DNA of 22,101 nt, taken from a virus. Each line of letters starts with the position of its first letter. The first letter of the stretch is position 1. The DNA is taken from positions 1 through 22,101 of IMG/VR virus record IMGVR_UViG_3300018049_000167, one strand, 5' to 3'. Shown in pieces: positions 1-22,101 of the stretch. A program made the translations under genes and the position numbers. The notes under the pieces are model-generated. The model was not told the origin of the DNA, did no database searches, and saw only the letters and a list, made by a program, of their open reading frames with translations.

Positions 1-3000
1 ATTCAATTCATCGGCACCAGACCATCTTACCCTACCACCGTCTTCACTGAGTACCGAGGCCAACGCTGAAATTGGAAGACCAAGGTTTCTAAAGTTAAGT
101 GGCAATGCGTTTCTGTTAACACCTGCCGATGCACCATTAAACTGGTGAGCAATCGATTCAACAAGAGATCCGAACACAAGCGTTTCAGGTCTCATTACGT
201 TGTCAATCAATCCCCAGTTAATCAGGGCTTTGACCATATCTCTATGATCATTATCTGGTGCAAGAGTAACGAGATAATCTCTCATCTTCGCCCAAGCTTG
301 TACAAACGAGTTCAACAAATCAACATTGTTTGGACCATCGTTTATCCATGTTGCACCATTCCAATAATATACATCCCCTGCGTAGTTACCTCTTACGTCT
401 CCGGTAAATACTCCTGAAGTGTTGGCCATCGCATTATTTATGTCAGTAGCAACAATATATGCGTGGTTCTTCTTCACTGCAAGATCACCTGTTCTACTTT
501 GAATCTCAGCCAATGCAGTCGTGTTATTTGAAACACTACCCATGTACTTCAGTCCAGTTGTTGTAGGATTAAAGACTGGGAATACATGCTGTCCATCAAA
601 GTCAAAGAGCGCGGCAGTATAAGCTCGAGTTCTTTGTCTGTCCCCGTTATTCTGGTAATTATCACTAAGTGGTGGACCAGCCGGGTTAACGGTGCTAAAG
701 TCTTGTCTAATTGCCTTCAGTAAGTTGAGACCATCTCTTCTCGTTAGATTAATGTCGATGTACTGATAAGTAGCATTGACAAATCTCACTGTATCAAAGG
801 CGAGATCAATCTTATTGAACTCAAGTATAGAACTTACGTCTTTAACAACATCAGGTATCCAAGTATAATCAGGTTCCTCTATCGCAGGTAAGTATGTTGT
901 ATCATTATTTATCTGAGTAAGATAGAAGATATTTGCCAAATCTTCAACTTTATTTGCTTCGACTTCTGTACCCGTGCCACTCTTCACCATTTGGCCAGGA
1001 TATCTGCCAAGAACGATGTCTTTACAAATGCGACCAAGATGCTGATAAGATCTTGCAGTAGGAACACGCTGATCTTCAGGAATGCGATAGATTTCGTTCC
1101 AGAAGTAGAAGTCTGCGTTCCATCTTGATGCTGTATTACCACCATAGTTAAGGTCATAACTAAATGCATCAAGGAGATAACCTGTATCTCTGCGACACTT
1201 ATCTTTGTTGTAATCGAGTACATCAAACTCTCTATGCAAGAAGTGAATAAGATCTTGAGCTAATTCTTGCTTATTATCTTCGATCATCTCGGCTGTAGCA
1301 ATAAGATCTGCTGCTATCCAAGATGTATCCGGCTCTTCAAGGACTGGTAGGCCATTTAGAGAATCATTTCTAATTACACTTTCAATAATTCCAGTTAAGC
1401 TTTGAGCCGAAGCACCTTCGGTTGCCGTAGCAGCAGTTCCAGCAATAACTTGTCTCGTGTCTGTATAACTCGTGTTAGCTGCTGCTACATCAATTTGCTG
1501 TACGACATCGCTCATTCGAGCGCCAAGGAAATTGTAAATGTCTGCTGTTTGTGTTCTCGTGTCAGCAGGAAGTACGCTAATTCCATTTTCGAAGTAAATG
1601 CCGGCTGCTATGCGAGTAGCATAGTTACCACCGTATTGTACGTCGTGTGAAACGGCATCGATAAGGTAACCAACGTCTCTTCTGCACTTACCTCTTGGGA
1701 AGCTCAATCCATTATAGGTTGTAGAGATGAAGCTAATTACTTGATCCGCTAAGTTTTCTGAAGCATTTTCAATCAAGTTAATAGAGTCTTTATAAACGTC
1801 TAGTATCCAATCAGTCTCTGGCATTACCATCGCAGGAATTGAAGTAGTTTCAGGTGTCGCATCATCTACTGCATTAGCGACAATCTTAACGAGATCTTCT
1901 ACTCTCATACCAGTCATTGGGTTAGCAGCCACTTCAGCAAAGTCTTGAGTGCGTGTATTACCAACTGTTGGAGTAACAACCATTTCTCGAGTAATGTGAT
2001 TCATTACTTTACCCAAATGCAAGAATGCTTTGTTTGCTGGCTGTCTTTGATTGAGAGGTAGACCAACGTTTACACCGTTTTGGAAGTAATTATAAGCTGC
2101 ATTAACTGTAGCTGCATTACCGCCATACTGAATGTCGTGCATTACAGCATCGACGATATAACCAGTATCTCTTCTACACTTAGTCTCGTCATAAGAAAGT
2201 GTATTGAAGTATGTAGAGAGATGACCGAGTACACCATTTTGAATAGTTGGTTTCGTTGTTTCGAGTGCAGTATATGCACCTTGGAAAGCAGTCCCGTAAG
2301 AAGAAACAGTAGGCTCTTCAATTACTGGCAATCCATCGATACCATTTTCACCAATTGCTTCTGCAACAATAAGCATCAGTTGCTCTACGACTGCAGAGAT
2401 ACTGTTGCCGGCTGAAGCAGCCGAAGTATCTTGAGATTCTCCGTTTCCTGATGTTGGACTAACGGGATCGCCATTAGCAATCAATTCTGCTACTGAAGCA
2501 AGATGAGTAAATGCTGCTGCTGTTGGCTCTCGCTGATTTTCTGGAAGTACGCTGAGTGCATTCTCGAAGTAAAGAATCGCGTTGTTTCTTGATGCAGTGT
2601 TACCGCCATGCTGAGCGTCAAATGATACTGAATCAACAAGATAACCTACGTCTCTCTCGCACTTAGCTACATCATAGCTCAGTGAAGGTCTGTTGAGAGC
2701 AATCCATGCAGTCATTTCTTTTTGCAAGAATACTTTGTTATTCTGAAGCTGTGCTCGAGCATTGATTCTTTGAGCACTCACTGCATCAGTACCGAATGAC
2801 ATAGTATTGGCGTTTGCGTAATCTTCTGTGCCACCCATGATATTAATGATAGTATCAAAGGCCGCATTAACTCTTTGGTTTGCAGCGTCGTCTGTTACAG
2901 CGTTAGAAGCTTGTAACTTAGCATACTCGACTGCAGAGATTGTTTCTGTTAATTGCTCATTAATAACTGCATCGGCACCTACCGTTCCAATTCGATATGC

Positions 3001-6000
3001 TCGACCATTGAAGTTTGCGTTGAAATTAGATCCAGTTAATACATCTCTCTTTACAGCATCAACGAGCAATCCAACATCTCGCTTACACTTATCTCCGTCG
3101 AAAGTATAGAATTCGTCATTAAGATAAGCAACGACTTCGTCGACAATAAACTCTTTATTGCGCTGGATTTGCTTACGTGCCACTGTTCTATTTGGATCTG
3201 CGACTGGCTTGACCTCTGTTGTAGTCAAGTTATCGAGATCATTATCATCAACAACACCTGAGATGACATTGAACAAATCTCTTACCGCGGCAGCTGTCGT
3301 AGAATCAGCGGCTGTATTATCAAAGTTTTGATATGGACCAGTGCTAATTGAATCAGCGTCTGCAGAAACAAATGTATGCACAGCCTGACCTGAACCACCA
3401 TCTCCAACATTCATTGTAATTTCAGTAGCCGTTACTGCTGTAATTGTAACCGCCTGATCATAGTAAGGATGGTGTGCCTGAGGTGATGTATGGTTTGTAG
3501 GACCGCTACCCATATCACACTGGAACGTAAATCCATTAGGCTTGAGCCAAACTTTACCACCAACTTGGAATGAGTGTGCACCAATCGTAGCAGTAAACAC
3601 TCCAGTCGCTGGATCGTATGTTGCATTAGTTGGACTATATGTTGTATACGTAGTTGCGTATGGAGTTTCTTGTACAACACTTTGGGCGACTGTAGCTAAG
3701 TGCTCAAACGCTCTCTTAGTTGGTACACGTTGCTCGATTGGTAAGATATTAGTTGCTTCTCTTAAACCAGAGACCGCGGCCAAATCGTCAAGTACTGAGA
3801 ATTGACCTGTAACTGGTACACTGAGAACATTGCGTGTTCTCAATTCTTCGTAAGAAGAAGCTAATCTTTCGTCGACAGTGAAGTAGTACTTGGCTGCTTC
3901 AATTGTCGAAGCGTTGCCACCATACTCAATATCCTTAGAAACCGCATCAGTAATGAGACCAACATCCCTGAAGCACTTGTCTTTATTATATGGAAGACCA
4001 TTATGGAATTCTCTCAAGTACTTAATTACACCACCCTGCAGTGATTCTGTGATGCCGTCGATCTTATTAGAAGCGTCGAGTGTTGCAGCCGTAGTGTATC
4101 CTGGCTCAATATATGTTGGCAACCAATCAAGAGTATCTTCTCGAATAACTTTAGAAACAACTTCGATAAGGTCGTGTGTTCTAATCGAGTTAATATCTCC
4201 AGCGTCTGGGTTTGTCGTATCTTGTGCTTCTGCGTTACCAGTCGTTGGTGTAACTGCTTGTGCTCTTACGATAAGAGCTACTACATTAGCAAGGTGCTCC
4301 CAAGCTTCTGCAGTTTTAATTTTTTGATCTGCAGGTAATACGCTAACACCTTCATTAAAGTAAAGTCTTGCGAAGTTAACTACACCAGCATTTGATCTAT
4401 GTGCAATATCCCAAGAAAGTGCATCAATTAAATAGCCCGTATCTCTGCGGCACTTAGCAGCGTCATATGAAAGATTCGGGAAGTTTTGTGTAATGTAAGC
4501 AATAACTTCTTCTTGTAAGAATGTCTTGTTAGCTTGCAAGTGAAGTTGAGCGTTACCAGCATCTGCACCAGCAGTTGCTGTCCCGTAATTAATTGCGTTA
4601 GCTGCACCGGTTCCATTCGTGAGAATATCAATAATTTCGTTAAACGATGCATTAGAAGCTGCAAGCTCAGTGCCATCGAGTCGATTAGCTACTTCATCTC
4701 TGATGTATCCAATCGCTGCAGCAGTTTGAGTCAATTGATCAGAGATAACATAGTTGCCACTAGCTGTGCCGGCTCGATAAGCGAGGCCAGAGTAAATGGC
4801 GTTATAATTCGATCCTGTTGCAACGTCTCTTCTGACAGCTTCAAGAATAAATCCTGTATCTCTTGAACACTTATCACCATCGAATACGAAGTATTGGCTA
4901 TCGAGATAGTGCATAACTTCTTCTTGCAAGAACGTTCTATTTGCTTGCAATTGCTCTCGAGCCCGTTGGCCGTGTGAGTTATATGTTGTTTTCGCTACGG
5001 CCTGGTTAATGCATCTTACAAATGTGTGTGCACCACCGCCGCCGATACCAGAGTTAACTGTAATGTCGTCGCCGGCAACGTTAGTTACTTCCATTGGTGC
5101 ATTAAAGTTTGCATCACCTCTTCTTGGATATGAGTGCTCTGTAGCATTACCATCCTGAGCGCATGTAAACGTAAAGCTATAAGGTGCAAATTCAATCCAA
5201 TCTCCAACAACAATGTCGTGATTTGGAATTGTAATTACACTTACACCGTTAACTGGATTATAAGTTGCAGTCGATGGAGTGTAGTACTTCAGAATGCGTG
5301 ATGGGTCTGTCCAAATAGTCGGATCAGATTCAATTGCACCTACATCGGCACTTACAAATGTATGAGCACCACCAGTCGACGCACCAACATTCATCGTAAT
5401 TGAAGTTGAAGTAACGGCAGTAATCCGTACTGGTGCGTTATAGAATGGGTGGTGACTTTCTGGAACAGCGTGATTCGTTGAGTTTCCATCGAGAGTACAT
5501 GAGAATACAATACTCTCAGGTTTGAATTGAACGTAATCACCTTCGGCCAAGTTATGTCGACCGATCGTAGCTTCAAATACTCCAGTTGCAGGATCGTATG
5601 TTGCTGTACTTGGAGTGTAAGAACTAATGTAAGTACCAGATTTCACACTGTCCGGATTTGCGCTTACAAATGTATGTGCAGTACCATTCTCGTATCCACC
5701 CACATTAACTGTAATCGTAGTTGATGTAGTGGAGTTAATTGTAATTGGCGTTCTATATGCAGGATGCTGTCTTTCACCTTCGATGGCATCTGCAAGAGCC
5801 GATACAAACGTATGAGTTCCGCCGCCATTTATTGCAGCACCTACATTACAAGTAATAGTTGTCGATGTGACCGCAGTCAGTGCAACTGGTTTCTTGTAGA
5901 AAGGATGATGTGATTCAGGAGTCGGATGATTTGTTGCATTGCCGTCCATGTCACAAGTAAATACAATTGACTCAGGAGCAATCTTAATATGATCACCAAC

Positions 6001-9000
6001 TTGTAAATTGTGCGTTCCTATCGTTGCAGTAAATACTCCAGTTGTAGGATCGTAAGTAGCATTAGTCGGCGTGTACTTCGTCTTAGTAGTCGTTGGATAT
6101 GAATGCTGTGTAGTGTTTCCATCCAAAGCACACGTAAATGTAATACTCTCATCTGCTAAGACGACAGTATCACCTTCTTGTAAATCGTGGGCGCCAAGAG
6201 TAAGCACCATTACACCAGTCGTTGGATCGTATGTCGCGCCGGTTGGTGTGTAAGATTTCTGATTATTATTAAGGATGTCTACAATCTGATCAAATCCTTC
6301 GTCTGACCTATCGATTGCACCTTGATCTGAAATCGTACCACTTGAAAGACCCTTGAGATGATTAATAGCACCGACCGTTTCTACAAGCTGGTCCATTACG
6401 ACTGTTTCTGCGCCTTGTGTTCCAGCGCGATAAGCGATACCAGTTTGCTTTGAATTGAAGTTAGTACCAGTAATAATATCTCTTTGAATTGCTGGCAAAA
6501 TGTATTGGAGCATGTCACGCTCACACTTTGCCGAATCGTATAAGAAATAGTTATCGTCAATATATCCCATTACGTTATCTTGCAAGAAATTTCTATTCAA
6601 TTGCAATTGCTTTCTTGCATTACGACGATCGGCTGAGATTCCTGCATCATCGCTAAACGCAATTGGCGAGCCGAGAGTGATAACAGAATCATCTTCTGCT
6701 TCTATAAATGTATGTGCAGAAGTATCAAACGACTTACCAACGTTAACCGTAATCTTAGTTTCGTTTGCACCAATTACTTCGATTGGTGAGTTAGCGGCAG
6801 GGTCAGTAGCTCTTGGATAACCTGTTCTCGATACGTTATTATCTCTGTCGCAACTAAATACGAGGCCACCGGTTTTGAGTAATACTTTTTGCCCAATGCC
6901 CAGACCGTGACCTGAAGTAATAGCATTCTTTACGGCAGATACAAATGTATGTACCTGTTGGCCGTTTGGTCCACCGCCGCCCACGTTCATTGTAATAGTG
7001 TTTGAAGTTACACTAATAATTGGACATGGCTTGTTGTAATATGGATGATGGGCTTCAGGAACTGCGTGGTTCTGAACACCGCTACCAGCATTACAATTAA
7101 ATGTCATGCCTTCTGGTTTCAACCAAACATGATCATCTGTAGTTAATTGGTGTGGTCCAATCGTTGCTACCAAAATGCCAGTAGCAGGATCGTAAGTTGC
7201 AGCAGAAGGTGTAAAGCCTTCACTCTCTGCAATTGTTATAACGCTGTATCCAGTTTCTGGATCATATGTGGCGTTAGTTGGAGTGAACGAAACGCCTCTG
7301 TTGTCGAGTGCAGCAATGACTTCGTCAAATGCAGCGTCGACTCTCGATGTACCAATATAAGAGTTGGCATCAATTAATTCGTTTGTTTGCTCTTTGAGTC
7401 TACGATAAGCTGCAATTGTTTCGTTGCGTTGTTGACCGACAACCTTTTCGGCCGACTTCATATAATAAGCACCACCAGCTCTCACCGCATTATAATTGGT
7501 GTCGAGCAGCATGTCGTACTTAGCGGCCGGAAGAATATAATCAGTTGTATCACGCTTACACTTAACGCTATCGTAAGCAAAGAATTGATCGTTGTTATCA
7601 ATCCAATCGAGAAGTTCGTCTTGGATAAACGATCTATTATCTTGAATGATTTCGCGAGCCGATGTTCTCTTAGAATTTCTGGTGTCAGCGAATATGATTG
7701 GGTTCATATTCTCTTCACCGTATTCTACAACATTATAGAGCTCATTCCAAGAGGTGTTGGCCCGCTCAAAAATTTCTGTATTAGCACCATCGAAAATATC
7801 GTTGATTCGATCTTGTAAATATCTGTTGGCACCAAGAGTTGCATCGAGCTGTTCGCCTACAACCTTACTTGAGATTGGTGAACGATAAGTGATACCCGCC
7901 AATCGACCCCAGTAGTTGGTGTCAAGTGTCATGTCATAAGCAAGACCGTCGATAATAATCTTAGAATCTCGCTCACACTTCTGAGCATCATATCCTGTAT
8001 AACCCAACCCGCCCGATGAAGTATTGGCAGTCAGATAATCGACCATATCTTCAATGATAAGATCTTCGTTCTGAGTAATGACGTCTGCGAAATCAGTATT
8101 ACCAATAATCGTACTACCTGATGGTACATCCTTAGGTGCAAAGATTCTCGTAGAACCCTTTGCTCTCATTGAAATATCACCGAACTGAGTACCCGAGTTG
8201 TTCAAGGTCATTTGTCCGCCATTCAATGCATAGAATGCAACACGTACGAAGATGGATAGAGAACCAATACCGTTAACACCAGCACCGTCTCTTGCTACAT
8301 AGCCCATACCATTTTGAGAACGAGGTGTGAAACCAAAGCAGAGTACGTATGTGTAGAGAGAATCCGGATCAAGGACTCTTCGATCCGCAAGCATACAACC
8401 ACCGCCACGCCCAACAAGTGGGTTGGGGAAGTCATCAATACCAATAGACTCAACAACACCTTGGCCACCCGACTCAGACTTGACTAAGTCACCAACAGCA
8501 AAACCTTTGTTATTTTTAAGGTTACGCACTCGGATCTTGCGATAAGTTGACTGATCTTTAGTGAGGCCGGCCGCATCATCGTCGTCATCATCCCAAGAAA
8601 TAAATCCTGTTGCACCACTTGAGAAAGTAACCTTATCGTCTTTTCTAAATGTACCTGCCGTAATTGGTGCAGTCAGAATAAATTCTCTACCCAAGTCGAG
8701 TACATTACCTTTCGTATTGAAAGGCTGGAGTGGTGGTTCTACATCTTCACGGAGGAAGTTAGAAAGCTGGGAGCTGTCACGAATATATGGTGAACGGAGT
8801 AGCTTAGCACCTGGTCTATAAGCACAAGCAAAGCCACCTTCTGGGAAGTCGAAGTTATCGATCTTCCAGTTTTGATATGCAAAACCTTGTACATAACAAC
8901 CCGAACCGACAAGGACTGCGTTATTATTTTCATAGCCGGGTAGTGCTTCGATCACCGTAGCATACTGACCCGCAGTAGCTGTCATTGCACAATCATCTGG

Positions 9001-9372
9001 AAGTGCAATATTACCCTTGGTGTAATAAGTGCCCGGGCCTACCGTGATATGAATGGCGTTATTAATTGCGTTACGATCGTAAGAACCGCCGGCTTTTTCT
9101 AATGCGAGCTCAGAAGCACGCTCAAGCGTTCTGATTGGCTCAAGCAACGAGCCAGGATTCTCATCATTACCTTTCGCAGCATCAACATAAATCTTAAGGT
9201 CAGACTCTGTAGTCTTTGAAATCTCACTAAAGAACTGTGCATATGTAATCTTTTCGACTTCACCTGTCTTCTCGTTCTTAAGGGCAAACCAGCTGTTTTC
9301 ATCAATGTGAGGCTCGAATTCTCGATCGATTTCCATGTCGAAATCGACGAGTTTATTGATCAATAACACCAT
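1..9372 (-). CDS. Giant modular virion structural (fibre/adhesin-like) protein, 3' end outside window
   Basis: A single open frame of 3,124 codons runs off the left edge, so the C-terminus is missing. All eleven KCxRD lysine codons fall in the same register, which argues against a frameshift. Residues about 60-170 look like the start of a pectin-lyase-type beta-helix (YVDAAKGND, then VGPGTYY). The rest is built from repeats: KCxRD modules with K at residues 465, 604, 949, 1501, 1640, 1799, 2095, 2237, 2398, 2562 and 2725, and TATYxP...HTF modules at about 696-894, 1039-1455 and 1910-2008. The visible C-terminal part has no such repeats and contains DVYYWNGATW. Similar large structural proteins are known to me from marine T4-like phages, so a virion fibre or adhesin role is inferred, not shown. 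The start is uncertain: ATG at 9372 overlaps the preceding gene by 20 bases, a second in-frame ATG lies at 9336, and neither has a good ribosome binding site. Confidence 0.9.
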   Translation of the reverse strand, partial: MVLLINKLVDFDMEIDREFEPHIDENSWFALKNEKTGEVEKITYAQFFSEISKTTESDLKIYVDAAKGNDENPGSLLEPIRTLERASELALEKAGGSYDRNAINNAIHITVGPGTYYTKGNIALPDDCAMTATAGQYATVIEALPGYENNNAVLVGSGCYVQGFAYQNWKIDNFDFPEGGFACAYRPGAKLLRSPYIRDSSQLSNFLREDVEPPLQPFNTKGNVLDLGREFILTAPITAGTFRKDDKVTFSSGATGFISWDDDDDDAAGLTKDQSTYRKIRVRNLKNNKGFAVGDLVKSESGGQGVVESIGIDDFPNPLVGRGGGCMLADRRVLDPDSLYTYVLCFGFTPRSQNGMGYVARDGAGVNGIGSLSIFVRVAFYALNGGQMTLNNSGTQFGDISMRAKGSTRIFAPKDVPSGSTIIGNTDFADVITQNEDLIIEDMVDYLTANTSSGGLGYTGYDAQKCERDSKIIIDGLAYDMTLDTNYWGRLAGITYRSPISSKVVGEQLDATLGANRYLQDRINDIFDGANTEIFERANTSWNELYNVVEYGEENMNPIIFADTRNSKRTSAREIIQDNRSFIQDELLDWIDNNDQFFAYDSVKCKRDTTDYILPAAKYDMLLDTNYNAVRAGGAYYMKSAEKVVGQQRNETIAAYRRLKEQTNELIDANSYIGTSRVDAAFDEVIAALDNRGVSFTPTNATYDPETGYSVITIAESEGFTPSAATYDPATGILVATIGPHQLTTDDHVWLKPEGMTFNCNAGSGVQNHAVPEAHHPYYNKPCPIISVTSNTITMNVGGGGPNGQQVHTFVSAVKNAITSGHGLGIGQKVLLKTGGLVFSCDRDNNVSRTGYPRATDPAANSPIEVIGANETKITVNVGKSFDTSAHTFIEAEDDSVITLGSPIAFSDDAGISADRRNARKQLQLNRNFLQDNVMGYIDDNYFLYDSAKCERDMLQYILPAIQRDIITGTNFNSKQTGIAYRAGTQGAETVVMDQLVETVGAINHLKGLSSGTISDQGAIDRSDEGFDQIVDILNNNQKSYTPTGATYDPTTGVMVLTLGAHDLQEGDTVVLADESITFTCALDGNTTQHSYPTTTKTKYTPTNATYDPTTGVFTATIGTHNLQVGDHIKIAPESIVFTCDMDGNATNHPTPESHHPFYKKPVALTAVTSTTITCNVGAAINGGGTHTFVSALADAIEGERQHPAYRTPITINSTTSTTITVNVGGYENGTAHTFVSANPDSVKSGTYISSYTPSTATYDPATGVFEATIGRHNLAEGDYVQFKPESIVFSCTLDGNSTNHAVPESHHPFYNAPVRITAVTSTSITMNVGASTGGAHTFVSADVGAIESDPTIWTDPSRILKYYTPSTATYNPVNGVSVITIPNHDIVVGDWIEFAPYSFTFTCAQDGNATEHSYPRRGDANFNAPMEVTNVAGDDITVNSGIGGGGAHTFVRCINQAVAKTTYNSHGQRAREQLQANRTFLQEEVMHYLDSQYFVFDGDKCSRDTGFILEAVRRDVATGSNYNAIYSGLAYRAGTASGNYVISDQLTQTAAAIGYIRDEVANRLDGTELAASNASFNEIIDILTNGTGAANAINYGTATAGADAGNAQLHLQANKTFLQEEVIAYITQNFPNLSYDAAKCRRDTGYLIDALSWDIAHRSNAGVVNFARLYFNEGVSVLPADQKIKTAEAWEHLANVVALIVRAQAVTPTTGNAEAQDTTNPDAGDINSIRTHDLIEVVSKVIREDTLDWLPTYIEPGYTTAATLDASNKIDGITESLQGGVIKYLREFHNGLPYNKDKCFRDVGLITDAVSKDIEYGGNASTIEAAKYYFTVDERLASSYEELRTRNVLSVPVTGQFSVLDDLAAVSGLREATNILPIEQRVPTKRAFEHLATVAQSVVQETPYATTYTTYSPTNATYDPATGVFTATIGAHSFQVGGKVWLKPNGFTFQCDMGSGPTNHTSPQAHHPYYDQAVTITAVTATEITMNVGDGGSGQAVHTFVSADADSISTGPYQNFDNTAADSTTAAAVRDLFNVISGVVDDNDLDNLTTTEVKPVADPNRTVARKQIQRNKEFIVDEVVAYLNDEFYTFDGDKCKRDVGLLVDAVKRDVLTGSNFNANFNGRAYRIGTVGADAVINEQLTETISAVEYAKLQASNAVTDDAANQRVNAAFDTIINIMGGTEDYANANTMSFGTDAVSAQRINARAQLQNNKVFLQKEMTAWIALNRPSLSYDVAKCERDVGYLVDSVSFDAQHGGNTASRNNAILYFENALSVLPENQREPTAAAFTHLASVAELIANGDPVSPTSGNGESQDTSAASAGNSISAVVEQLMLIVAEAIGENGIDGLPVIEEPTVSSYGTAFQGAYTALETTKPTIQNGVLGHLSTYFNTLSYDETKCRRDTGYIVDAVMHDIQYGGNAATVNAAYNYFQNGVNVGLPLNQRQPANKAFLHLGKVMNHITREMVVTPTVGNTRTQDFAEVAANPMTGMRVEDLVKIVANAVDDATPETTSIPAMVMPETDWILDVYKDSINLIENASENLADQVISFISTTYNGLSFPRGKCRRDVGYLIDAVSHDVQYGGNYATRIAAGIYFENGISVLPADTRTQTADIYNFLGARMSDVVQQIDVAAANTSYTDTRQVIAGTAATATEGASAQSLTGIIESVIRNDSLNGLPVLEEPDTSWIAADLIATAEMIEDNKQELAQDLIHFLHREFDVLDYNKDKCRRDTGYLLDAFSYDLNYGGNTASRWNADFYFWNEIYRIPEDQRVPTARSYQHLGRICKDIVLGRYPGQMVKSGTGTEVEANKVEDLANIFYLTQINNDTTYLPAIEEPDYTWIPDVVKDVSSILEFNKIDLAFDTVRFVNATYQYIDINLTRRDGLNLLKAIRQDFSTVNPAGPPLSDNYQNNGDRQRTRAYTAALFDFDGQHVFPVFNPTTTGLKYMGSVSNNTTALAEIQSRTGDLAVKKNHAYIVATDINNAMANTSGVFTGDVRGNYAGDVYYWNGATWINDGPNNVDLLNSFVQAWAKMRDYLVTLAPDNDHRDMVKALINWGLIDNVMRPETLVFGSLVESIAHQFNGASAGVNRNALPLNFRNLGLPISALASVLSEDGGRVRWSGADELN
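1186..7980 (-). repeat. Eleven diverged KCxRD modules in the giant protein
   Basis: The motif KCxRD occurs eleven times, with Lys codons ending (minus-strand first base) at 7980, 7563, 6528, 4872, 4455, 3978, 3090, 2664, 2181, 1689 and 1200. Most are preceded by a helix of the type NRxFLQxEVxxYI. Subtype A continues RDVxTGSNxN, then AYRxGT and QLxxT (clearest at 6528, 4872, 3090). Subtype B continues DxxYGGN, then YF and VLPxxQRxPT (4455, 3978, 2664, 2181, 1689, 1200). A degenerate twelfth copy (NLTRRDG) lies near 745. Direct neighbours are 139-164 residues apart. Confidence 0.85.
3350..7290 (-). repeat. Interspersed TATYxP...HTF beta modules in the giant protein
   Basis: A module of about 95 residues recurs. 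It begins with a YTPTxATYDPxTG motif, has FxCxxDGNxTNH and HHPFY in the middle, and ends TITxNVG then HTFVSA. TATYxP-type starts occur seven times and HTF ends seven times; some copies are partial. At DNA level each start has a conserved stretch of about 39 bases around CCAGT...GGATCGTA (plus strand) beginning at 3602, 5246, 5582, 6038, 6215, 7178 and 7250. These are candidates for homologous recombination. Confidence 0.8.
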
Positions 9373-10378
9373 TTTTAAATGTAGTGTTTTCAATTACACC
9401 ATTGTCGAATGTAGAATTCTTTTGTGATAAACCATCAGCTGTTGAGCTGGTGATTGACATATTCGTTGCTACGACACCATCCATCGTGCCTGCAAAAGAA
9501 GAATCAACAATCGTTGAATTTTGAATAATACTTTGGTCGACAGTAGTGTTGGTAAAGATATTATTATTACCAGTACCATCTGAGAAATCTGAATCAAGAA
9601 TATCAGATTGAGTAATAGTAACGTTATTTGCTGTTGAGTTTTCAATCGTCCCATCAGCAAACGATGAAGTAGTAATAGTAAGATCGTCACCCGTCGAAGA
9701 TGTAATAGCTCCGTTAGTGAATTCACTCTGATCGATTGTAGAGTTTGTGATTGCACCGGTGTCGAATGTAGAATTCGTAATGGTGACATTGTCAGCAGTC
9801 GAATCTGTAATTTCACCATTGGCAAAAGTAGAATTTGTTAAACGTACGTTTGTACCATCTACATCGGCCATTGTGCCGGAAGCAAAAGATGAATTAGTAA
9901 TCGTTACGTTATTGGCAGTAGAATCACCAATGGCACTATCGTCGATAGTTGAGTTAATAAGACGTACGTTGTCGCCGTCTACATTTTCCATTGATCCGTC
10001 GTTAAACGTAGAATCAACAATGGCCGTATCTCTAATATCGCCATCTCGGAAAAGAGAATTATCAATGTCGAGATTTGTACCGGTTGAATTTCTGAGCGTG
10101 CCGTTATTAAAATCAGTTCGGACAATATTAGAATCTTCCATGTCTGAATTATCGATTTTAACATTATCGATATTCAAATCATGGATAAAGGCGCCCGATA
10201 TATCACCACCAGTGATAGTGATTCTATTGAAAATTTCGTACATGAGAGCTTGAACAAGCTCTTTTCTCGTGATGTTCTTAGTACCGTCATCACCTTGTAC
10301 TAGGTTTACGATAACGAATAAATCTTCGGTCCTAGTATTAGCGCCGGTTATCGACCCGAGTTCTGAAATCTTAGACAT
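9353..10378 (-). CDS. Pentapeptide-period beta-helix fibre protein
   Basis: A 341-residue protein. Residues 1-50 form a non-repetitive head (SELGSITGANTRTEDLF, then VNLVQGDDGTKNITRKELV) of a type I recognise from marine T4-like phage structural proteins, probably the virion-attachment end. From residue 55 to 295 every fifth residue is I, L, M, F, V, A or G: 49 consecutive positions without a break. Larger repeats are 20 residues, four pentads each, and shorter ones are 15, 10 or 5. This fits a right-handed quadrilateral beta-helix like pentapeptide-repeat proteins, although the sequence is richer in S, T, N and D than the classic A(D/N)LXX. The register shifts after residue 295 and resumes at F324. 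A ribosome site AAGGA lies 4 bases before the ATG, and two late-promoter-like boxes lie further upstream. Adhesin or spacer function is inferred. There are no Cys residues and no visible enzymatic motif. Confidence 0.88.
   Translation of the reverse strand: MSKISELGSITGANTRTEDLFVIVNLVQGDDGTKNITRKELVQALMYEIFNRITITGGDISGAFIHDLNIDNVKIDNSDMEDSNIVRTDFNNGTLRNSTGTNLDIDNSLFRDGDIRDTAIVDSTFNDGSMENVDGDNVRLINSTIDDSAIGDSTANNVTITNSSFASGTMADVDGTNVRLTNSTFANGEITDSTADNVTITNSTFDTGAITNSTIDQSEFTNGAITSSTGDDLTITTSSFADGTIENSTANNVTITQSDILDSDFSDGTGNNNIFTNTTVDQSIIQNSTIVDSSFAGTMDGVVATNMSITSSTADGLSQKNSTFDNGVIENTTFKNGVIDQ
9494..10228 (-). repeat. Pentad/20-residue coil repeats of the beta-helix fibre
   Basis: This segment encodes residues 51-295, where positions 55, 60, 65 and so on to 295 are all I, L, M, F, V, A or G. 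Within 20-residue coils the faces are regular: Ala/Gly at 135, 155, 175 and 195; Ile/Leu at 140, 160, 180 and 200; Phe at 165, 185 and 205; Met/Ile at 170, 190 and 210. At DNA level this gives diverged 60-base repeats. Confidence 0.85.
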
Positions 10379-17416: not shown

Positions 17417-17423
17417 CTTCCTT
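17417..17423 (-). promoter_or_regulatory. Ribosome binding site of DUF4815 gene, overlapping the gp8 stop
   Basis: AAGGAAG lies 10 bases before the ATG at 17406 and shares its first bases with the TAA stop of the gp8 gene. This suggests translation of the two genes is coupled. Confidence 0.65.
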
Positions 17424-19077
17424 AAAATTCGAGAACGATTTTAAACTCTTCTTTTGCTACAGTATTTTCCACTAAACCATTCTCGACATTTTCTGACGTT
17501 CTATTCAATGGGAAGAAATTTTCCATAAAATAAACTTTGCCAGATCTTTGAATATATGGCGAGACAACAACATTATCTGCTGCCGGTGTATTTATTTCAA
17601 TTATCTGGCCCGTCTCGTTTCTCAATGATCGAGTTAAGTCGAGTGAAGTATCACCGTTTCCAGTATTAGCGTTATTTTGATAAGGGCCCATATAATGAGC
17701 TAAATAAATTTTATCATTTGTTTCATCAATCTCGTGCACTCGGCCTGAGAAAGTAACGTCTTGTGTTTCTGAACTAATTTGCACGACCGTTGTATTAGCA
17801 GTCACACGATCGGCGTTTGCTGTAGTAATTTCTATACGATTATCAAAAACTTCTGGTGGGGTCAGTGTACTAAACTCTGGATTTTTAACAATGCCAACAG
17901 AAGCATAAGTGTTTTCATTTGGAATTACATTGTTGTCATCGGTAGTAATATAAGCGTAAAGACTATAATGTCTACATCTAAATTCGTTAATTAAATTATA
18001 GCCATGATCACTATCAGGCGTAAGAACTGCTCGTATCGAAGCTCTTACGTCTGTTGTTTCTTGGCTGCTTGGATCAAAATCATAAGCTGGATCGACAACC
18101 TGAGCAGTGACATTATTATATCCATCACCGGGATTTAATACAATAATTGTAGAAATTCTTCCATCGACTACAGTAGGAATTGCAACTGCACCAGAGCCAT
18201 CGCCTTCGATTTTGATTGTAGGGAAAATACTAAACGATGCGTTTTGTTTTACTACTGACGATCCGCCTCCCTGTGTAACAGGATCAATATTCAATCGTAT
18301 GTCAGCTAGACCCGTTTGATCATCATAATTATATGCTGTAATTTGATAGAGGAACGTTGAGCTATCTGGATTCGTAAAATAAATTGATTGTCCTACGTAA
18401 TAATCTTCGATAGGATTAAACGTACCATCTGGGAAAACTTCGACGACACTATTAACGATATCTGTATCTGTTACTCGACCAGTTTCTTCTATGTAACCAA
18501 AATTATCTTCGTTGTTCTGAACAATAATATCAGATATTCCTCCACCAGTATTGGCAGAAGGATTAGTATCAAAGTCACCTACGATAGGAACAAAACCCTG
18601 TGAGTTATATGCATCAAATTCTAATTCACTGATAACATACATGTACTTCCAAATATAGCCATCTGCTGTTCTATAAATTTGATCGACAGATGACTCGTTA
18701 AATGCGGGAGGACTTGTTACTCCAGCACCATAGTTATTAAACAGACACTTATAGACTCGGTAATCTCCAGTGTCATTGTCGTTTGGTCCAACAACGCAAT
18801 AGAACCTTTGGCCTTCTAATTCTTCTGAGTCGTCATACTGTACAAACACATCATCTCTTTGCCAAGGATAGTACTTGATCATGAAATGTGTGTCTCGTGT
18901 TTTAATCTTTTTACCAAAAATTACTTTTTCTAAAAATTCTGTTTTAGAGACCTCAGTGTCGGCAGGTATAATTTCATTAATTGAAGACGCAAAAATGTAA
19001 TAGTCGTTATTCTCGACGTCGTTTGCAAACCGGCGTGTTGCGTCTGCTTTAAATTCTGTGGTTAAAATTTCTGGCAT
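17422..19077 (-). CDS. 8: Baseplate wedge protein gp8 homologue
   Basis: A 551-residue protein. It shares with T4 gp8 an N-terminal segment around FKADATRRFANDV, the element VYKCLFNN (residues about 108-115; T4 has VYRCL at the equivalent place) and TADGYIWKYMYVIS (137-150; T4 has GDGYVWEYLF), followed by a VPI segment. In T4, gp8 is a dimeric part of the hexagonal baseplate wedge, bound to gp10, gp7 and gp6. T4 gp8 is 334 residues long, so this homologue carries about 200 extra residues, mainly beyond residue 170 in acidic beta-rich sequence. The start follows a 39-base gap that holds a late-promoter-like box and a weak AGG ribosome site. The next gene follows after 15 bases. Confidence 0.85.
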   Translation of the reverse strand: MPEILTTEFKADATRRFANDVENNDYYIFASSINEIIPADTEVSKTEFLEKVIFGKKIKTRDTHFMIKYYPWQRDDVFVQYDDSEELEGQRFYCVVGPNDNDTGDYRVYKCLFNNYGAGVTSPPAFNESSVDQIYRTADGYIWKYMYVISELEFDAYNSQGFVPIVGDFDTNPSANTGGGISDIIVQNNEDNFGYIEETGRVTDTDIVNSVVEVFPDGTFNPIEDYYVGQSIYFTNPDSSTFLYQITAYNYDDQTGLADIRLNIDPVTQGGGSSVVKQNASFSIFPTIKIEGDGSGAVAIPTVVDGRISTIIVLNPGDGYNNVTAQVVDPAYDFDPSSQETTDVRASIRAVLTPDSDHGYNLINEFRCRHYSLYAYITTDDNNVIPNENTYASVGIVKNPEFSTLTPPEVFDNRIEITTANADRVTANTTVVQISSETQDVTFSGRVHEIDETNDKIYLAHYMGPYQNNANTGNGDTSLDLTRSLRNETGQIIEINTPAADNVVVSPYIQRSGKVYFMENFFPLNRTSENVENGLVENTVAKEEFKIVLEF

Positions 19078-19116: not shown

Positions 19117-21510
19117 TTAGCCCGTAAGCTTTTTTCGATATCTTGGATATAGCACTCCGGTGTCTGCTTCTTTGGGCTTTCCAACCGGTCCACGAACAGT
19201 CGTAATATATTTACCATTATTACCTCTGTCGATTGCCCAAGGTAATCCTATATGTAAGTTAGTCGATCCTTGTAATTGAAGAGTTACGTAATCATCATTG
19301 CCCGTTGTTCCGGCCGGATGACTAAAGATACCGGTTTCATTGGTCGATGTCTTTGCTGAATAAAAACCGTCCGGACTTGTATAGCCACCTTTAATTACGT
19401 GGTTTGATACAAAGCCTAAGCTTGCCGTAGGCGCATTACTCCAATCATAGCCGGGATCGTCTTTCATTCTTGGTCGCGCGTAATTTCTCATTCTTGTTTT
19501 TAATTGCGCTATCGTTGGATAAGTGCCTGTTCGAATAAAGAAATCTTCGACAAAGCAAGCACCTACACCGCAAGCTACTGGTGCTGCATTACTCGTGCCT
19601 GAGAAGTATGAATAGTATTCTCCAGAACCATTGTTCATATAACCACCGCCGAAGTATCCATTAAAATCCGGCGCGCCTGCATAATACATTGCGCCTGGAG
19701 CCCATAAATCAATTCCCGGACCTCTACAACTATAAGAATCTGGATATGGATATTTCGTACTAGGTTGTGCAGCTCCAATCGTAATTCCATTTGTTTGACC
19801 TTGGTCATAAGTTCGAAGAGGATAATGAGTTAAAGGACTACTTAACGATGGACCACCACCGAGAGATGAACTGCTTCCTGACCAATTAACTTGTGTATAA
19901 CGACTTCCAGCTTCTTGAACAATATAGTTGTCCCATTCTGGTAAATCTTGGTGACCAAAATTAATCGCTGAATTCCCGGCACTACGGAACCAGTAAAAGC
20001 CATCATAATTAGTAAACGTGTTAATTATGTTATCAAGTGCAGTAAAGCGTGAATTTGTATCTCGTGTCATAACAAACCACTTAACCTGATTATCATTCTG
20101 ATCTTGAGCTGTTCGAAGATTAAAGCCAGCCTCACTGAAAGCAGAAAGGTCATTACCCCATCCACCGCCGGGACGATTAGTAGTGACAAGTGTTCCGTCA
20201 CTCGTGTAACGACCTATTTGCGTAACATTATCAACTGGAACTAATCTATCAAAGTAATACCATGCGTATCCCCATGCAGCCATTGTCACTGTTGCATTTC
20301 TTTTGCCTGTTTCTGGATTGACTGGCTTTGAATTATGCCAGTTCAACACTGCGTTAATCATACCTTCTGGTGTTACGCCACTACCAAAATAAGCTATTCT
20401 AACTTCTGATCCTCTAGCGTATCCAGTAAATAAACCTGCAGAACTTGACGCAACGCCAGCTGAATGATATCCAAATAATTCACTGTTGCTCAGCTGATTA
20501 TTTTCTGGCGTATTCATACTACTGTCGTAATTTGACCAATTCATTTTTACTAGGCGACTACCACTCGGCTTGACAAATTGTATAGTACCAGTCATTGCTG
20601 GATGATTGACACAAGTGTATGTAGCGCTATTCAAACCTCCCTCTTCAAACCAATCTGCATAGAGAGTGATTGTACTCGCTGTTCCGTTACCAGCCACACC
20701 TTCTCGGTAAGGAGGATTGCCGCTACCAGGAATACCGTATGGAGCTTGTGTTGTAACCTTTATTGGGTGAAAAGAACCGGCGTTATTTGTTATAATAAGC
20801 TTATCACCGTAATTCAGCTGTATAGTCGGATTAGATGCATTAGTAAGAGTACCACCTCTATGCGTACCATTCACAATATACGCAGACGTTCCATTCGCAG
20901 TAAAAGTCAAATTATACGTCTGAGGATCAAACACCGTCCAATTTTCGTGATTTTCAAAATCAGTATTATAACTTGTTTGAACATCGCTATTAGATTCGAG
21001 ACACACAACATCAACGTATCGACCAATTAATTTGTGCCTATGTGTTGTGTTAAAATCTACGGCTTCTCCATCCCAATTAAAGTGGCCGATAGGATAACTA
21101 GGGTCTGCACCTCCCGAGGCTTGCAGTCGTTGATCTGGCTGTGCGCCTGTAATATACACATGACTTAATGGACTATGAGTGGAGCCATGCGAGGCATTAT
21201 CAGTTATAGCCGAGGAAGAATTAACGTATGCACCACCGTCGAGGTTAATACTTGCTCTAAAACTGGCGTATTTTTGAAATTCAGTAACATTGTACGAAAA
21301 GGGTATTGGATCCTCTGATTTTTCTACAGAAACAACGTTAGTGCTTTCTTGTAACGTCGTTGCCTCTTCTTCTGTAAGGTTGAGTATAACCCAATTGTCG
21401 AAGTTATTGAGGTTAGTATTAAGATCCAGATTAGCCGCGTCGCCCGTTTCGAGGAACGCCGCTTCGTCTGTGCCTGGTACAAGTTCAACTCTGTAGGGTG
21501 ATTTATCCAT
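19117..21510 (-). CDS. Subtilisin-fold (S8-like) virion protein with inserted cupredoxin-like domain; probable pseudoprotease
   Basis: A 797-residue protein. Residues about 38-70 (NWVILNLTEEEATTLQES, then VVSVEKSEDP) resemble an I9-type subtilase propeptide. The S8 fold is marked by VDVVCLES at 166-173, FGYHSAG at 346-352, SAGN at 510-513 (oxyanion Asn513), ITIGAA at 576-581, LWAPG at 602-606 and SGTSNAAP at 637-644 (Ser640). Aligned with subtilisin, the catalytic Asp is Glu172 and the catalytic His is Phe346, while Ser640 and Asn513 remain, so proteolysis is doubtful. Between the Asp and His regions lies an insert of about 120 residues with a cupredoxin pattern: His248, Cys300, His303, Met306. 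No signal peptide is seen. The start is 1 base after the stop of the upstream gene, with no strong ribosome site. Location before gp8 suggests a virion or assembly protein; activity, if any, is unknown. Confidence 0.85.
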   Translation of the reverse strand: MDKSPYRVELVPGTDEAAFLETGDAANLDLNTNLNNFDNWVILNLTEEEATTLQESTNVVSVEKSEDPIPFSYNVTEFQKYASFRASINLDGGAYVNSSSAITDNASHGSTHSPLSHVYITGAQPDQRLQASGGADPSYPIGHFNWDGEAVDFNTTHRHKLIGRYVDVVCLESNSDVQTSYNTDFENHENWTVFDPQTYNLTFTANGTSAYIVNGTHRGGTLTNASNPTIQLNYGDKLIITNNAGSFHPIKVTTQAPYGIPGSGNPPYREGVAGNGTASTITLYADWFEEGGLNSATYTCVNHPAMTGTIQFVKPSGSRLVKMNWSNYDSSMNTPENNQLSNSELFGYHSAGVASSSAGLFTGYARGSEVRIAYFGSGVTPEGMINAVLNWHNSKPVNPETGKRNATVTMAAWGYAWYYFDRLVPVDNVTQIGRYTSDGTLVTTNRPGGGWGNDLSAFSEAGFNLRTAQDQNDNQVKWFVMTRDTNSRFTALDNIINTFTNYDGFYWFRSAGNSAINFGHQDLPEWDNYIVQEAGSRYTQVNWSGSSSSLGGGPSLSSPLTHYPLRTYDQGQTNGITIGAAQPSTKYPYPDSYSCRGPGIDLWAPGAMYYAGAPDFNGYFGGGYMNNGSGEYYSYFSGTSNAAPVACGVGACFVEDFFIRTGTYPTIAQLKTRMRNYARPRMKDDPGYDWSNAPTASLGFVSNHVIKGGYTSPDGFYSAKTSTNETGIFSHPAGTTGNDDYVTLQLQGSTNLHIGLPWAIDRGNNGKYITTVRGPVGKPKEADTGVLYPRYRKKLTG
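20569..20928 (-). other. Cupredoxin-like domain inserted in the subtilisin-fold protein
   Basis: The segment encodes residues about 195-314. NPTIQLNYGDKLIITNNAG and FHPIKV are followed by a glycine-rich loop and then SATYTCVNHPAMTGTIQFV. The ligand pattern is His248, then Cys300-x2-His303-x2-Met306. The short C-x2-H-x2-M loop has the same spacing as the CTPHPFM loop of amicyanin. Copper binding is therefore plausible but unproven; the same fold can occur without metal. Confidence 0.75.
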
Positions 21511-21511
21511 T

Positions 21512-22101
21512 TTACGACTCTAATACTAATGCGGTAATAGTAACATCGATACTAGTAGTTCCGCCGCTGAGATTTTTTACTCTTACTGGAACAGTTGTCT
21601 GGCCATCTGTCCAACCAATTACGCCAGGGGCAATTTTAAATACTGTTGATCCAGAAGAAATCATTTCAGCAACTACACCATCACCATCAGAGGGGTCATC
21701 ACCTTGTGCTCTATTCTGGTCTGCAGTTCTTGCTGCGTCATCGGTATAAATTCTTATCCAGGCCGCGTTGTTTGTTTGAACTTTAAGCAAAGCATAAGAT
21801 TCTCCCAAAGCATTAAAGTCGATATTAGCCTGAGCGTTATCTGCAAGTGAAGAAGCTGTTCTAACTTGTGTAGCTCTCGTTGCAGCACCGCCACCACCAC
21901 CGCTATTATTAACCCAGGCATAATCTGTACCGGTCCACGATAGAACCTGATCATTCGATGCGCTTGATGTATTAAGATGAGTATCTACATCCCCGTCTCC
22001 GTAATTACCACCACTCGATAATGCTGTCCATTGATAATCTGAGCCACTCCATTGCAATACTTGATTTGTTTGCGCTGAGCTCGTATTAAGGTGGGTATCA
22101 A
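21512..22101 (-). CDS. Fibre-type structural protein, C-terminal part (5' end outside window)
   Basis: About 196 residues are visible and the frame stays open to the window edge, so the N-terminus is missing. Two copies of a repeat, DTHLNTSSAxxxQVLxWxGxDYxW, sit 38 residues apart, followed by a polyglycine hinge (NNSGGGGG). The C-terminal domain (VRTASSLADNAQANIDF, then SYALLKVQTNNAAWIRIYTD, then APGVIGW) is of a kind I recall at the ends of structural proteins in marine T4-like phages; its function is not known to me. QVLxWxGxDYxW is a common short motif of phage fibres. The gene ends 1 base before the subtilisin-like gene. The in-frame TTG at 22057 is not taken as a start because the repeat continues upstream of it. 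A fibre or baseplate-decoration role is inferred. Confidence 0.85.
   Translation of the reverse strand, partial: DTHLNTSSAQTNQVLQWSGSDYQWTALSSGGNYGDGDVDTHLNTSSASNDQVLSWTGTDYAWVNNSGGGGGAATRATQVRTASSLADNAQANIDFNALGESYALLKVQTNNAAWIRIYTDDAARTADQNRAQGDDPSDGDGVVAEMISSGSTVFKIAPGVIGWTDGQTTVPVRVKNLSGGTTSIDVTITALVLES
21911..22099 (-). repeat. Two tandem 38-residue repeats in the partial fibre gene
   Basis: Copies start with DTHLNTSSA at 22099 and 21985, which are 114 bases apart, and end in SGSDYQW and TGTDYAW. The first copy touches the window edge, so more copies may lie outside. Confidence 0.85.

Follow-up and report, generated by a model that had tools for sequence, protein, structure and literature searches.

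The DNA analysed here is a virus record of 22,101 bases (positions 1-22,101, hereafter the window). On its minus strand lies a gene for a 797-aa tail protein that combines a peptidase S8 (subtilase) fold with an inserted cupredoxin domain, and the genes on either side of it are as follows:

17422..19077 (-): gp8-like baseplate wedge subunit, the next gene downstream (PHROG 438, E 5.7e-48)
19117..21510 (-): gene for the 797-aa tail protein (S8 fold carrying the cupredoxin insert; ORF, PHROG, Pfam)
21512..22099 (-): upstream gene, truncated at the edge of the window (PHROG 9627, unknown function, E 6e-32)

Residues 8-715 of the 797-aa protein match PHROG 15006 'tail fiber protein' (E 1e-37). Other tail-gene neighbours in the window encode a PHROG 358/DUF4815 protein and a fibre carrying an S74 chaperone domain. 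The full-length PHROG 15006 match and the baseplate and fibre genes nearby identify the product as a phage tail protein, the context that an earlier, sequence-only reading of this DNA had assumed. A phmmer search of the PDB with the whole protein returned no matches. The protein was found at 100% identity on four IMG/VR contigs, and its first 98 residues on a fifth. The window phage is distant from the annotated phage collection: its wedge protein shows at most about 25% identity to the records there (44 records were retrieved, with Sinorhizobium phages at the top and Synechococcus phages accounting for 12), and the tail protein shows 25.6% identity to that of S-CAM1. Elsewhere in the window, a 3131-aa open frame that runs off the window edge (1-9393) has PHROG tail-fibre and virion-structure matches, and a pentapeptide-repeat protein (9353-10378; Pfam Pentapeptide_4, E 5.6e-18) is encoded amid the tail genes.

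The S8 fold and the inserted cupredoxin domain

The tail protein scores 28.2 bits against Pfam Peptidase_S8 (PF00082; cut-off, 21.8) and its predicted structure contains a subtilase fold, both of which place it in peptidase S8. The positions equivalent to the S8 catalytic and oxyanion-hole residues were assigned by alignments and located by codon:

20995..20997 (-): Glu172, S8 catalytic Asp position
20464..20466 (-): His349, S8 catalytic His position
19972..19974 (-): Asn513, S8 oxyanion-hole position
19591..19593 (-): Ser640, S8 catalytic Ser position

The Asp-His-Ser triad is thus incomplete, with His349 and Ser640 kept and Glu172 standing in for Asp. Among 24 aligned rows, this position is occupied by Glu in 11 (the window and S-CAM1-type proteins) and by Asp in 13. 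The Glu runs through a whole lineage of putative tail subtilases in which His and Ser are kept. S-BM3 has a differing Ser motif in its S8 part, and the AGN pattern of the S8 search recurs within the cupredoxin domain of the window.

Alignments A7 and A5 were folded; A4 and A6, in which S8 rows are mixed with domain fragments, were omitted from folding. In the model of the window protein, a strand (166-173) precedes the cupredoxin domain and a helix (349-364) follows it, which agrees with the proposal, made from the letters alone, that the insertion lies between the Asp-position strand and the His helix of S8. The S8 fold would then have to tolerate the insert, and it does so in the model, in which 4zoq (Z 10.5) and 3whi (Z 9.9) align across residues 151-700. 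The inserted domain and its putative copper ligands, the latter assigned by alignment and codon, are located as follows:

20563..20925 (-): cupredoxin domain, residues 196-316 (model, structural comparison, family profile against the PDB)
20767..20769 (-): His248, first copper-type ligand (H-P-I/F motif)
20611..20613 (-): Cys300, ligand
20602..20604 (-): His303, ligand
20593..20595 (-): Met306, axial ligand

The sequence-only reading had described a cupredoxin-like domain with His248, Cys300, His303 and Met306 at 20569-20928, i.e. residues 195-314. The domain and the four residues are present, with the codons checked and the fold predicted, and the coordinates are a near fit that is replaced here by the predicted bounds, 196-316. 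The strands of the model (198-205, 211-217, 220-226, 229-233, 237-242, 250-253, 280-284, 295-300 and 307-313) extend over residues 198-313 and form a Greek-key beta-sandwich, as expected of such a domain. The mean pLDDT of the whole protein model is only 56, and in ten-residue blocks of the domain it is 95-98 at 201-250, 65 and 48 at 251-270, and 87-96 at 271-310.

The closest structural match of the domain is 2dv6_A (Z 11.2, rmsd 2.3, 95 residues, 23% identity). Among the 50 structural matches listed, 48 align on the domain and are either copper nitrite reductases or two-domain laccases, and the remaining two are subtilases aligned over 151-700, i.e. around the insert. The relationship to cupredoxins is also seen in the Foldseek comparison, in which the four matches at E<=0.001 are all Hyphomicrobium copper nitrite reductases. 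A profile built from 41 domains retrieved 25 PDB sequences at E<=0.001, all of them type-1 copper proteins (rusticyanins, plastocyanins, amicyanins and copper nitrite reductases), and in the four alignments inspected the His and Cys-His-Met columns coincide with the known ligands. Pfam Copper-bind scores 17.4 bits on the window domain, below its cut-off of 21.2. Membership of the amicyanins was rejected on the NCBIfam equivalog score (17.1 bits vs a cut-off of 110.2).

His, Cys, His and Met thus stand at type-1 places in the window protein. C-x2-H-x2-M is the spacing of the amicyanin copper loop, and the amicyanin-like spacing claimed earlier was recovered as CVNHPAM at residue 300, the sole such motif in the protein. 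The loop of plastocyanin is spaced C-x2-H-x4-M, and a plastocyanin-type loop was rejected on this difference. In 20,000 shuffles of the window protein, C-x2-H-x2-M occurred in 33, and in 14 it lay 40-60 residues after a His. The motif on its own is suggestive only; the cupredoxin identity is settled by the fold and the family conservation.

Ligand conservation and spread among phages

Conservation of the four residues in homologues, on which the sequence-only reading made its proposal depend, was surveyed in two ways, and cluster counts are also given because many copies are near-identical. In a 12-domain seed drawn from different phage proteins, 10 columns are invariant, and the ligands are four of these. 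Among full-length domains encoded by ORFs of the window and of loci L001-L214 (L020, a second copy of the window gene, was omitted), all four ligands are present in 175 of 175 and in 44 of 44 clusters at 70% identity, and the median alignment column is conserved at 52% (all) or 48% (clusters). These 175 are a subset of 238 aligned pieces, from which 63 with <90 model positions were omitted. Ligand residues were contained in one of the six search patterns of each of the two relative searches, which kept 80 of at least 596 and 80 of 127 relatives, and in both patterns of a cell-genome scan; the patterns of the window-protein contig search and the S-CAM1-homologue search were free of them.

The second survey used only the N-terminal 90 positions of the profile, because the copper loop was thereby kept out of the selection. 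It yielded 216 hits, of which 211 were used (five short ones were omitted); three of these are cut by contig ends, leaving 208 assessable copies, which fall into 52 clusters at 70% over the N-terminal part. All four residues are kept in 208 of 208, and degenerate, ligand-free copies, which were sought with this N-terminal part, were absent among them. C-x2-H-x2-M lies downstream in 177 of the N-terminal hits and upstream, in permuted form, in 29. Inspection by eye settled two copies that escaped the fixed motif: L208 (S-SKS1; domain at about protein residues 834-945) has C-x4-H-x2-M and is the sole copy observed with a longer Cys-His spacing, and in L158 a long inserted segment precedes the copper loop, CQYHIGM. 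Between the ligands the sequence is highly variable among copies, and all four ligands are retained even in copies with a permuted hairpin or with a large segment inside the domain, as in L158.

Several further features were seen in individual loci. The segment in L158 (2471-5458), which lies inside the cupredoxin domain ahead of its copper loop, comprises about 300 residues with a GHSQGG motif and appears esterase/hydrolase-like by eye (Pfam Chlorophyllase 15.4 bits, below the cut-off). L174 (863-3937) encodes an S8 protein in which the Ser motif is followed by a row of four or more copper-type loops (CGNHSSM, CGNHSIM, CGLHSAM and CQFHSGM). A copy in L182 (6722-7051), cut by the contig end, has Gln for the first His (GQPF).

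The domain had been presented as a peculiarity of one subtilase, which it is not: the module is widespread in baseplate and fibre proteins of marine cyanophages. Searches of 50,697 phage records gave 33 matches with the window domain, 166 with the ACG-2014e domain and 352 with the first P-SSM2 domain. By the first word of their names, the last group comprises 271 Synechococcus, 55 cyanophage and 19 Prochlorococcus records, i.e. 345 of 352 with cyanophage-type names (Synechococcus phage, Prochlorococcus phage or cyanophage), the rest being 4 marine, 2 Pelagibacter and 1 uncultured. As a rough yardstick, compared by totals and not record by record, a gp8-like marker was found in 493 records, 459 of which bear the three cyanophage names. 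A whole-record profile scan gave a match in 13 of 14 phage records, with four in P-SSM2 and none in S-CREM1, and the domain is therefore not needed by every cyanophage.

The carriers are gp9-like baseplate connectors (with the domain at the C-terminus), proximal tail fibre and large multidomain proteins, S8 proteins (domain C-terminal or in loops), a podovirus protein (P-GSP1) and a Pelagibacter phage tail fibre. Most of the carriers retrieved have the domain outside any S8 fold. They are annotated as connectors, fibres, tail or virion proteins, peptidases and hypothetical proteins. The cell-genome scan, with its ligand-containing patterns, gave 75 loci, 10 of which have Bacteroidota titles. 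Most of the other loci belong to ammonia-oxidising archaea, and the archaeal proteins inspected contain two such domains each. On marine Bacteroidota contigs (L215-L223 and L226), large proteins (frames of 717-1588 aa) contain a very similar domain, and these bacteria may be a cellular source or an exchange partner of it.

Circularly permuted copies in S-CAM1-type subtilases

The S-CAM1-homologue search gave 25 loci. S-CAM1-type proteins carry a permuted cupredoxin in the same loop as the domain of the window protein: the Cys-His-Met hairpin, usually C-terminal, is N-terminal in these copies, and His-Pro-Phe follows 69 residues after the Cys. Permuted copies are present in 21 loci. A second permuted copy occurs in seven loci with a complete S8 part, as well as in L034, which is cut short; it sits between an RP-x-G stretch and GGWGSD, a site where S-CAM1 and the window protein have none. 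In L042 the first site is empty, with HPDF followed by eight residues and then TRVIPMDW.

The tree groups the 13 distinct permuted copies in a single clade (support 0.999), so the simplest account is that the domain was permuted once and later copied into a second loop. A pairing of the window domain with a Bacteroidota sequence in the tree was regarded as a long-branch pairing and set aside. The model of L037 has a subtilase fold (Z 27.3 to 8c4z_B over 246 residues), and in it both permuted inserts are beta-rich with a permuted strand order (pLDDT about 52-88 there); this strand order comes from the model alone, and the 50 Foldseek matches listed for L037 are all subtilases. The permuted copies have their new ends at the turn that leads into the Cys strand, where two strands adjoin in the usual fold, and since these ends lie between neighbouring strands, the permuted module would be easy to insert into a loop.

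Possible role and relation to known systems

To the fold, its place within S8, the ligand conservation, the spread and the circular permutation of one lineage, all computed here, the names, neighbours and families of the genes add a probable display on the virion, and location points to a part in attachment. The best reading is that the module is competent to bind copper, mobile and part of the adsorption apparatus; it most likely binds one copper ion. The overall explanation that we prefer, giving it slightly better than an even chance, is that of a mobile copper-type cupredoxin module on the adsorption apparatus that takes part in attachment. A module of about 105-120 residues would have been grafted onto baseplate connectors, tail fibres and tail subtilases, its holders presumably forming the adsorption apparatus of marine T4-like phages. 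In the window protein it occupies the loop that joins the Asp/Glu strand to the His helix of the predicted subtilase fold. The complete type-1 ligand set (His, Cys, His and Met, with C-x2-H-x2-M) is retained in the module, whose metal would hold the top of the beta-sandwich together and make it rigid, and the module, exposed at the tail tip, may then take part in attachment to the host surface. An extended version, in which cyanophages are copper-bearing virions, the permuted loop cassette is copied, and infection is copper-dependent (through a receptor cue or trigger) and tied to ocean copper, we consider unlikely.

Other explanations start from the same ligands. Copper itself may be the cue: by displaying it, the virion would dock on a copper-uptake protein of the host or on some partner of plastocyanin-like proteins, a counterpart for copper of the 'Trojan horse' idea about iron in phage tails. 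The strict ligand conservation and the position in attachment proteins are consistent with this, as are the iron precedents for metal in tails (PMC11705849); the occurrence of the domain with many different tail proteins, however, fits a general module. We regard a copper cue as quite unlikely. A binding or structural module, with zinc or some other metal, or no metal, at its ligands in the virion, is improbable to much the same degree: what is shown is the identity of the ligands, which leaves copper and other soft metals undistinguished, but the C-x2-H-x2-M plus His set is accompanied by relatives, both by profile and by fold, that are copper proteins.

Type-1 copper ligand sets usually serve redox chemistry, and together with the insertion near the catalytic Asp/Glu strand of the window protein this would suit a redox or copper sensor, in which reduction near the cell changes the shape of the domain and triggers the tail or the adjoining subtilase. 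Most of the carriers retrieved are without an S8 insertion, though, and a sensor appears less probable still. An accidental motif on an unrelated beta-sandwich, for which the 33 occurrences in 20,000 shuffles might be cited, can be given hardly any credence and was rejected, because the homologues keep all four ligands and the fold and the PDB profile agree.

If the domains bind copper, a large group of abundant ocean phages has an unnamed, strictly conserved copper site on its attachment machinery, distributed among many tail proteins. Metal use in phage adsorption would then become directly testable, a role for phages in marine copper would be suggested, and PHROG 677, 9158 and 15006 could be annotated. 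In its permuted form the domain would represent a natural circular permutant of a cupredoxin that keeps all four ligands, and a clear example of a domain becoming insertable into loops. The cupredoxin fold, the type-1 ligand set and the S8 fold are already known, and engineered circular permutants of azurin exist. Neither a conserved type-1 ligand set in marine cyanophage tail proteins nor a natural circular permutation of the cyanophage copper-type domain is described in the open-access literature searched, and a natural permuted copper cupredoxin is likewise absent from the available parts of the circular-permutation and cupredoxin literature searched (PMC3143127, PMC12051499 and PMC4532836).

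Amicyanin, plastocyanin and rusticyanin, matched by the profile at E 1.5e-5 to 1e-3, share with the window domain a Greek-key beta-sandwich with His and Cys-His-Met, but they are free electron carriers, whereas the phage domain is a module inside tail proteins and has His-Pro-Phe/Ile after the first ligand. The closest solved fold is that of the three-domain copper nitrite reductase of Hyphomicrobium denitrificans (2dv6), in which the cupredoxin domain belongs to a respiratory enzyme, unlike that of the phages. Positions 295-409 of the 412 in the profile of PHROG 677, the baseplate wedge tail fiber connector (gp9) of cyanophages, correspond to this cupredoxin domain; PHROG 677 is named only as a connector, and the copper-type domain is unnamed there. 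With subtilases (peptidase S8), the window protein has in common the fold and the His, Asn and Ser positions, and differs in that Glu replaces the catalytic Asp and a cupredoxin insert precedes the His helix. Metal sites have also been proposed on marine phage tail proteins, in the iron-binding HxH tail fibres of phage T4 (gp37) and Alteromonas phage R22Y (PMC11705849). In such fibres iron is held by His pairs between fibre strands, whereas the window protein contains a folded cupredoxin domain.
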